From contig JALWDW010000020.1 in the NCBI GenBank assembly GCA_027036675.1, positions 1 through 38,496 of the forward strand: a DNA stretch of 38,496 bases, read 5' to 3'. How positions within the stretch are numbered: position 1 is the stretch's first letter; the number at the start of each line of letters is the position of its first letter. The DNA comes from Candidatus Dojkabacteria bacterium (lineage in GTDB: Bacteria; Patescibacteriota; Dojkabacteria; SC72; JAHDCA01). The translations under genes were made by a program, and so were the position numbers. Below are positions 9,486 through 11,575 of the stretch, piece by piece. Under the pieces are notes generated by a model, which saw only the letters and a list, made by a program, of their open reading frames with translations, was not told the origin of the DNA and made no database searches.

Positions 9486-10400
9486 TTAGAGGCCGGATTT
9501 ACACCGATTATTCCTTCTATGCCTTGCAAGTCTTTGACTTTTCCTGCCCAGTTTCTTCAGTAATTTGTTTTCACCCCACGATCTCACCATACGCTCGGTG
9601 ATCGGCGTCGCTTGATTCCACATCACATTGTAAATAGCCCTAAGACTTGATGATAGCGCACTGCTTTTAATCGCCATTCCCCATACTTCATCGCCTTCGG
9701 CGCAAGCCATATTTACATACTCGCCCTGTATCTCGAGACGGAGATACATTTGAAAAGCATAGTTGTCAATATACCTGATATTGTTGCGAACCAAATAATC
9801 TCTGTTTCTGCCATATTGATAGGAGATCACATGCTTGGTCCAATCGTTCAACGGCACCAATTCTTTATCTTCCCCGTCTGGCGCTCGCTTCATCGACTTA
9901 TCTATCACTTCGTTGGTCCATTCCTCTCCAAGCGCATCCATAGGCATAAGATGCGTCCATGCATAAGTTGGTATTCCCAGCTCCCCGGACAATGCAAAGA
10001 CTCTTTTGACTCCTTCGACGCCTGGATAATACCGTACATCCGTATTTGTTTCACCCTTGTGATAATCACGCTTCAAATCTGGAAGAATGTGAACAACATC
10101 AGCCTCCAATGCAAACAATTTATTTCTACGTTTTCTGATAATTTTCCTTAGTTCCGAAGGGTTCTTCCCTTTCACCTTCGTTTGTTGTTTGGTAAAACCG
10201 TCACTTTGTTCCAGTTCCACTAGACCTTTCAGCGAAAGGCTCATCAATATGTCATAAATCGTCGTCCTAGGAATATTAACCAACTTAGAAATTTTATAAG
10301 GAGATAAATCGTCATGTTTGATACAAACTAAATAGACTTCAATCTCTTTTTCGCTAAGCCCAAATTGTTCCAAGACCTTTCGCACTCTTTTCATTGCCAT
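9486..10400 (-). CDS. TrmB-like transcriptional regulator; likely start at 10400 (MAMKRV) or 10394, since the ORF start at 10433 overlaps the -35 box
   Basis: N-terminal wHTH: LEQFGLSEKEIEVYLVCIKHDDLSPYKISKLVNIPRTTIYDILMSLSLKGLVE, typical of TrmB-like wHTH proteins. Confidence 0.75.
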   Translation of the reverse strand: MAMKRVRKVLEQFGLSEKEIEVYLVCIKHDDLSPYKISKLVNIPRTTIYDILMSLSLKGLVELEQSDGFTKQQTKVKGKNPSELRKIIRKRRNKLFALEADVVHILPDLKRDYHKGETNTDVRYYPGVEGVKRVFALSGELGIPTYAWTHLMPMDALGEEWTNEVIDKSMKRAPDGEDKELVPLNDWTKHVISYQYGRNRDYLVRNNIRYIDNYAFQMYLRLEIQGEYVNMACAEGDEVWGMAIKSSALSSSLRAIYNVMWNQATPITERMVRSWGENKLLKKLGRKSQRLARHRRNNRCKSGL

Positions 10401-10403
10401 ACT

Positions 10404-10433
10404 ATTATAGCCAGTGTCGACACTGACCGTCAA
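10404..10433 (-). promoter_or_regulatory. Promoter of the TrmB-like gene: TTGACG - 18 bp - TATAAT, with the 14-bp palindrome CAGTGTCGACACTG in the spacer
   Basis: Minus strand reads TTGACGGTCAGTGTCGACACTGGCTATAATAGTATGGCAATG; palindrome at 10412-10425. Confidence 0.7.
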
Positions 10434-10480
10434 GTTAGACAGTCGATCAATTTTACTCTATACTCAAGTACTTTGCTTAT

Positions 10481-10555
10481 GGGGGGGTAGTTTAATAGCA
10501 AAATATATATTGGAAACAATATATGACGTCGGTTCAAATCCGACCCTCTCCACCA
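10481..10555 (+). ncRNA. tRNA-like RNA with encoded CCA; acceptor, D and T arms recognisable, anticodon arm replaced by a GAAA-tetraloop hairpin
   Basis: Acceptor GGGGGGG/CCTCTCC (two G-U), D arm GTTT-AATAGCA-AAAT, T arm GTCGG-TTCAAAT-CCGAC, discriminator A then CCA. 10505-10524 ATATATTG-GAAA-CAATATAT. Confidence 0.65.
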
Positions 10556-10567
10556 AACAAAATAGAT

Positions 10568-11575
10568 ATGATGAATATTACAAGCACTTTAAACAAATTG
10601 ATATCTACCGTACCTGATTATCAGCTTACCAAGAAAGATCGCAAGCAGGTTAAATTCGAAGGGATGGATGAATACATTTTTCATAAGATTAAGTCGTCCA
10701 GGTACACTGGATCTGCTATACCTCCGGAACTGGCCGAGAAAGTACGGGATATCATCCGAGATACTGTCAATAACAATAAGCCTATTCATATATCGATACC
10801 TTTTGGTGGCTACAAAAAGCCTCAATTTTCCTCCGCCCCACATCTTGATTGGGCGGAAGTTTTCAATACAATCCAACTCAGAGAGTATCTGACTCCCATA
10901 GCGACTGCATATCCTCCGGGAGTCGTCATTGAATATTTTTCAGATGAAATATTTGTTTCTCGTATGAACAATATTCCCCAATCCGATCTGGACTTATACA
11001 ATGGTGAATTTGCATCACTCATAAAGTTTATGAACAAATTTACAACAAAAAATATGATTTTCAGATTCTCAAAAATACGTGACCAGATCACTTTTGAAGA
11101 GTTGCATCGAAGATTCGATAGAGAAATGGTTAAATTACGGAAGGATTGGAATTCTTTGACTGAAGTTGAGAAGTCTTTTCGGTTGCGTAAGGCTGAAAGA
11201 AATTACAACCAAGATCTATCATCTGTATCAAAGCAAGAGAGACATGAACTATTATTGAACTCAACCCTCGTGCATGACGCCTTTATCTTCGGAGACTGGG
11301 ATCATGGCGTATCATGGGCCTTTGCTGATGATATGATCCCGGTCGGATTTAGATATACAGGTACCTGGGGTGTTCACATAAAGTCTTCTCGCAGTAGTAC
11401 AGTGCAATTCTGGGTCGGCAAAGGGGGAATGCGAATACACGATGATTGTCCAATCTCGACGATTCTCACCTACAAACAGTATGTGAAATCAGGCAAATCC
11501 ACTATTAAAGTAGATACCGTCGTCCAACATATTTCGCCGATACTAAAGGCCATTGAATTCTTCAATTGTGGCTAA
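10568..11575 (+). CDS. Uncharacterised protein, about 335 aa; faint pattern resemblance to DIT1/PvcA isocyanide synthases
   Basis: Clean ORF starting 12 nt after the tRNA-like CCA. Block DWAEVFNTIQLREYLTPIATAYPPGVVIEYFSDEIFV...DLDLYNGEF recalls the PvcA-type YPPGxxxxxxSDxxxF pattern, recognised by eye only. Confidence 0.7.
   Translation: MMNITSTLNKLISTVPDYQLTKKDRKQVKFEGMDEYIFHKIKSSRYTGSAIPPELAEKVRDIIRDTVNNNKPIHISIPFGGYKKPQFSSAPHLDWAEVFNTIQLREYLTPIATAYPPGVVIEYFSDEIFVSRMNNIPQSDLDLYNGEFASLIKFMNKFTTKNMIFRFSKIRDQITFEELHRRFDREMVKLRKDWNSLTEVEKSFRLRKAERNYNQDLSSVSKQERHELLLNSTLVHDAFIFGDWDHGVSWAFADDMIPVGFRYTGTWGVHIKSSRSSTVQFWVGKGGMRIHDDCPISTILTYKQYVKSGKSTIKVDTVVQHISPILKAIEFFNCG

Follow-up and report, generated by a model that had tools for sequence, protein, structure and literature searches.

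A candidate non-decoding tRNA gene paired with a PvcA-fold enzyme gene in Candidatus Dojkabacteria and other Patescibacteria

Besides cyclodipeptide synthases (CDPS), the biosynthetic enzymes that use aminoacyl-tRNA include FemX/MurM, VlmA and the PEARLs; to our knowledge, all of these draw on ordinary cellular tRNAs and none is co-encoded with a tRNA. Staphylococcus possesses a non-proteinogenic tRNA-Gly for cell-wall synthesis, which is charged yet specialised away from translation; unlike the pair considered here, it keeps its anticodon, serves Fem ligases and forms no unit with an enzyme gene. PvcA, the nearest fold to the enzyme family described below, works on free amino acids, and we know of no use of tRNA by it. 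CDPS are derived class-I synthetases (PMC2922099). Like the proposed tRNA-enzyme pair, they employ charged tRNA outside the ribosome, and the two may share a distantly class-I-synthetase-like Rossmann fold, although the family studied here lies nearer to PvcA than to CDPS in fold and sequence. The Bacillus cereus tRNA-Other would resemble our copy in being a tRNA-like gene without a role in translation, and is thought to form part of a larger regulatory RNA (PMC3399842); unlike our copy, it has no enzyme family as partner. Our survey of open-access journal papers on tRNA use by isonitrile/isocyanide synthases, on gene clusters that hold dedicated tRNAs or pseudo-tRNAs and on Patescibacteria tRNA-likes returned nothing relevant, and within it we found no prior description of the tRNA-enzyme pair.

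The window (the whole stretch of 38,496 nt that was analysed) comes from a Candidatus Dojkabacteria genome of 0.88 Mb in 49 contigs, 83% complete. Within it, a tRNA-like gene and an enzyme gene, apparently co-transcribed, are arranged as follows.

9486-10433, minus strand: TrmB-type transcriptional regulator, transcribed divergently to the tRNA-like and enzyme genes
10436-10464, plus strand: candidate sigma-70-like promoter TAGACA-17-TATACT (10/12 matches), with 16 nt between it and the tRNA-like gene
10481-10555, plus strand: tRNA-like gene with encoded CCA and putative tRNA-Ala-type acceptor (G3:U70, A73), from sequence, Rfam and RNAfold
10481-10487, plus strand: acceptor 5' strand GGGGGGG, G3 pairing with U70
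10490-10504, plus strand: D arm GTTT-AATAGCA-AAAT, D-loop without G18G19
10505-10524, plus strand: 8-bp hairpin ATATATTG-GAAA-CAATATAT replacing the anticodon arm, GAAA at 10513-10516
10528-10544, plus strand: T arm GTCGG-TTCAAAT-CCGAC, loop canonical
10545-10555, plus strand: acceptor 3' strand CCTCTCC, discriminator A73 and encoded CCA
10571-11575, plus strand: PvcA-like enzyme gene, 334 aa, pI 9.1, with an in-frame alternative ATG at 10568

The 75 nt of the tRNA-like gene read GGGGGGG-TA-GTTT-AATAGCA-AAAT-ATATATTG-GAAA-CAATATAT-GAC-GTCGG-TTCAAAT-CCGAC-CCTCTCC-A-CCA, and retain the full cloverleaf of a decoding tRNA: the acceptor stem, the D arm, the T arm and the CCA end are all present. 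Rfam family RF00005 (tRNA) matched 10481-10552 at 50.4 bits against a gathering score of 29 (E 4.6e-8); ARAGORN called no tRNA gene at 10481-10555. RNAfold gave a minimum free energy of -24.3 kcal/mol (z -3.75 against dinucleotide shuffles), the GAAA hairpin being present in both the MFE and the centroid structure. The initial annotation had described tRNA-grade arms with a canonical T loop and encoded CCA, on which the sequence and the RF00005 match agree, and an 8-bp GAAA-capped stem in place of the anticodon arm, on which the sequence and RNAfold agree. Its two reported losses were likewise confirmed: no 7-nt anticodon loop with U33 could be formed in the hairpin arm, and G18G19 were sought in the D-loop (AATAGCA) and found absent. 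A reading as tRNA-Ser(GGA), by way of UU-GGA, was rejected because it would need a loop of 8-10 nt, and is also disfavoured by the normal tRNA-Ser(GGA) already present in the same genome.

One feature had been overlooked, namely the combination of G3:U70 and A73 in the acceptor stem. Among the 43 other tRNAs recovered from the genome, G3:U70 occurs only in three tRNA-Ala. AlaRS recognises this pair and ignores the anticodon, so it should charge the tRNA-like molecule with alanine through G3:U70 and A73, and loss of the anticodon is compatible with such charging. The same G3:U70 and A73 recur at L047. By inspection, other identity sets look coherent as well (G-1:C73 with GUG at L041; U73 with UCC at L049, L050 and L093; U73 with GCA in Cys-type linked tRNAs). 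From some of the Cys types GCA has gone (L067, L092, L095, L100, L113, L119 and L063), and since CysRS normally reads GCA, the charging of these is doubtful. Housekeeping tRNA-Cys genes exist separately from the linked Cys-type tRNA-likes.

The pairing is not confined to the window. A search of 380 genomes from the phylum recovered homologues of the enzyme in 15, a count that includes L044 and L045, which encode a different, larger PvcA-like protein; genome contigs yielded 76 loci, most of them in draft metagenome bins. Immediately upstream of 47 of the 76 homologues (in-group tree rows), mostly in Patescibacteria, there is a same-strand gene for a tRNA or tRNA-like, and among these 47 no other order or strand was seen. 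Linked tRNAs often end 4-12 nt from the enzyme start codon or overlap its ATG with their CCA. The 47 include L099, whose tRNA, though about 195 nt from the gene, is still a full cloverleaf; housekeeping-looking tRNAs near L053, L060, L109 and L118 were excluded. No other neighbour recurs around the enzyme loci. Set against an estimated chance expectation of 5% (44 tRNAs, about 900 genes), the adjacency gives a binomial P of about 1e-41, which is only illustrative since the homologues are not independent. The remaining 29 homologues, including a whole clade of nine, have no adjacent tRNA by the criteria used and so must use other tRNAs or none.

Co-occurrence was assessed across 245 genomes of the Saccharibacteria class with a covariance model of 20 Cys-type tRNA-likes (R2) and a protein profile (A4); a first model covering all types (R1) had given a poor RNAalifold structure and was replaced. 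The tRNA-like was found in eight genomes and the protein in nine, with all eight shared and adjacent (hypergeometric P 3e-14), and the ninth belongs to the tRNA-less clade. Five of the 245 genomes were already known through loci behind R2, which makes the test partly circular for those five; the finding that genomes lacking the enzyme gene also lack the tRNA-like is unaffected. A single-sequence scan of genome contigs gave no matches, and a search of viral contigs and phages was negative. The initial annotation had called for a covariance search for the same arms upstream of homologues of the downstream gene, and had named an ordinary anticodon loop in relatives, or a lack of co-occurrence, as counting against its reading. 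Neither objection held: the R2 tRNA-likes, in 8/245 genomes, all lie beside the enzyme gene, and the nearest relative, L047, also lacks an anticodon loop. The window copy is not a lone pseudogene.

The linked tRNAs comprise at least seven identities, mostly Cys, which switch along with the enzyme.

L047: Ala-type with a UUCG hairpin, nearest relative, at about 50% identity
L048: Val
L033: Met
L034: Arg
L049, L050, L093: Gly
L041: His, G-1:C73
Many loci: Cys

U33 of the anticodon loop, GG of the D-loop and TTC of the T-loop have often disappeared, yet the cloverleaf still pairs; "often" here reflects a reading of alignments, as the automatic loop parser mis-cut many Saccharibacteria D-arms and some anticodon arms and its tallies of GG, U33 and TTC were left unused. 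Among 20 Cys-type members, 95% of cells are paired and the covariation score is 0.45, against 0.22 when shuffled. The cloverleaf is maintained via compensatory changes despite the non-standard D- and T-loops. The 33:38 pair flanking GCAA-containing loops is C:G in 21 cases, U:A in seven and another combination in eight, so that U33 has often given way to another base and the loop could close in GNRA-like fashion; at L067, L095, L100 and L113, GGAA stands in place of GCAA. By one criterion a GNRA loop could be closed in 35/51 linked tRNAs against 4/43 housekeeping ones, a difference that is only suggestive because a GCA anticodon with A37 makes closure easy in Cys types. GNRA-like loops do recur within the Cys clade. 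The earlier suggestion that the GNRA loop docks to a receptor or protein is unsupported in the window's own clade, in which L047 carries UUCG and ordinary 7-nt loops are present in other members. At L067 (4751-5930) the unit is doubled in tandem as tRNA-enzyme-tRNA-enzyme, both tRNA-likes having a GGAA-type loop.

The pairing of a dedicated tRNA with the enzyme is established on comparative grounds, and aminoacyl donation is the best-supported candidate function of the linked tRNA. We consider it probable that the two genes form a module in which a dedicated non-decoding tRNA donates its amino acid to the adjacent PvcA-fold enzyme for small-molecule synthesis. In such a module, an ordinary cellular synthetase, here AlaRS, would charge the tRNA by its acceptor-stem identity; the missing anticodon, joined in many relatives by loss of U33, D-loop GG and T-loop TTC, would bar it from translation; and the enzyme would bind the aminoacyl-tRNA and transfer or modify the amino acid to give a small metabolite. 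Because the same pair recurs across many such bacteria with at least seven amino acids, the tRNAs probably feed the enzyme rather than the ribosome. A change of enzyme goes with a change of tRNA identity (Ala, Val, Met, Arg, Gly, His, Cys), so that every enzyme would come with an amino-acid supply of its own. The initial annotation had likewise proposed a dedicated molecule that might donate an aminoacyl group to the neighbouring protein or bind it as a ligand; the dedication is strongly supported by co-occurrence and by the missing anticodon loop of L047, and the donor role is well motivated by the identity elements and the enzyme fold.

Alternatively, the tRNA-like could act in cis as the 5' leader of the enzyme's mRNA, regulating translation through mimicry, processing or synthetase binding, with no donor role. 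The very tight spacing would suit a leader, as would the promoters. At 29 of 49 tRNA-enzyme units a -10-like box stops 6-8 nt short of G1, a spacing seen in 0/34 housekeeping tRNAs of the window genome and 8/86 at other loci, so transcription of many units may begin directly at the tRNA. In the window the -10 box ends 16 nt before G1, in a promoter that is a consensus match of a kind present at six sites in the region against 3.8 expected, and the enzyme start codon follows 12-15 nt past the CCA. At several loci the A of CCA is the A of ATG, and a single transcript would then yield either tRNA or protein, not both. A leader, however, would not have to preserve identity elements that are coherent for seven amino acids, or to switch identity with enzyme clade, and the L099 tRNA is a full cloverleaf despite its distance from the gene; we regard this explanation as unlikely. 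Relatives of the TrmB-type regulator were found near four other loci of the enzyme family.

Returning to the donor module, the enzyme itself belongs to an undescribed, basic family of PvcA/isonitrile-synthase fold that is distantly TyrRS/CDPS-like. A Pfam scan of the window protein found no family at cut-off, PF05141 (DIT1_PvcA) reaching 17.6 bits against a gathering score of 26.4; up to E 1, PF05141 matched 9/13 family members (best E 2.3e-7). A profile of 13 homologues matched the isonitrile synthase 9dhm at E 4e-7. In Foldseek searches with the AlphaFold model of the window protein (pLDDT 89.7), the top structural matches were PIsnA (9dh4/9dhm; E 1.6e-10) and PvcA (3e59; E 1.2e-8), with weak matches to TyrRS (E 9e-5) and CDPS (E 5e-3) at TM about 0.3; the PvcA fold was found in predicted models at TM about 0.6. 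The model of a Saccharibacteria member (pLDDT 95.4) gave the same order of matches, and Pfam scans and PDB sequence searches gave no CDPS match. Over the part of the protein that aligns, an invariant Lys and a D..AE motif are common to the family and to PvcA/isonitrile synthases.

These similarities invite a narrower version of the donor module, in which PvcA-type isonitrile chemistry takes place at the amino group of an amino acid still attached to its tRNA, and the tRNA is a carrier protecting the carboxyl. The tRNA-linked family nevertheless differs from PvcA, PIsnA and the distant Patescibacteria homologue L044 in lacking their C-terminal R-L-S/T-I/V-H-P motif, which makes use of the same co-substrate as PvcA doubtful, and we rate this specific chemistry as rather improbable.

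In quick trees, with some long branches, the window's clade holds two Ala pairs, one Val, one Met, one Arg and two Gly; it adjoins the tRNA-less clade, one of mixed composition and a large one of Cys types. In the window's order, among 42 genomes, no other carries the whole tRNA-like, which suggests horizontal gain. Homologues in myxobacteria and Rhizobium, with no tRNA seen, are located in biosynthetic gene clusters; a free-standing Corallococcus homologue lies between PKS and PKS-NRPS genes. Such surroundings, together with the biosynthetic fold, argue against a protein that attacks or sequesters tRNA with the linked tRNA-like as decoy or antitoxin RNA, a proposal that one tRNA per protein and the tandem copies at L067 would also fit; the linked tRNAs differ from housekeeping ones in parts where a decoy would have to imitate them, and we give it very little credence. 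That the tRNA-like is a pseudogene in decay, or what is left of an integration site, next to a cargo gene is scarcely credible, for although tRNAs commonly serve as integration sites and a Bacillus cereus pseudo-tRNA flanks an island (PMC3399842), this reading is contradicted by strong covariation and co-occurrence, by constant order and strand, by the lack of a conserved integrase or other neighbour and by the spread over many lineages with different tRNAs and a separate housekeeping tRNA.

If the donor module is correct, it would constitute the first tRNA family known to us whose members each have a biosynthetic enzyme as partner gene and no longer serve decoding, and would connect isonitrile synthases with tRNA-using enzymes. 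The pairs would point to unknown metabolites in Patescibacteria, and the system would allow a direct test of how little of a tRNA a synthetase and a non-ribosomal enzyme require. More tentatively, and with somewhat less than even confidence, we envisage a new biosynthetic class whose enzymes are each coupled genetically to a decoding-dead tRNA of their own, with tRNA swaps setting the choice of amino acid and with isonitrile synthases, TyrRS and CDPS linked through tRNA-using relatives.

Several homologues stand apart from the paired loci. In myxobacteria, L101 (5965-7053), L094 and L105 lie between large PKS-type genes without a tRNA, the neighbours of L101 being, by domain, PKS upstream and PKS-NRPS downstream. 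A distant homologue on a Rhizobium leguminosarum plasmid (L178, 5917-6969) sits beside transaminase, methyltransferase, MetK and MFS genes, surroundings resembling a small biosynthetic cluster. L044 (670-2478) and L045 (889-2682) encode proteins of about 600 residues with, by eye, an N-terminal MerR-type HTH-like segment and a PvcA-like region, which in L044 matches PvcA at E 8e-15.
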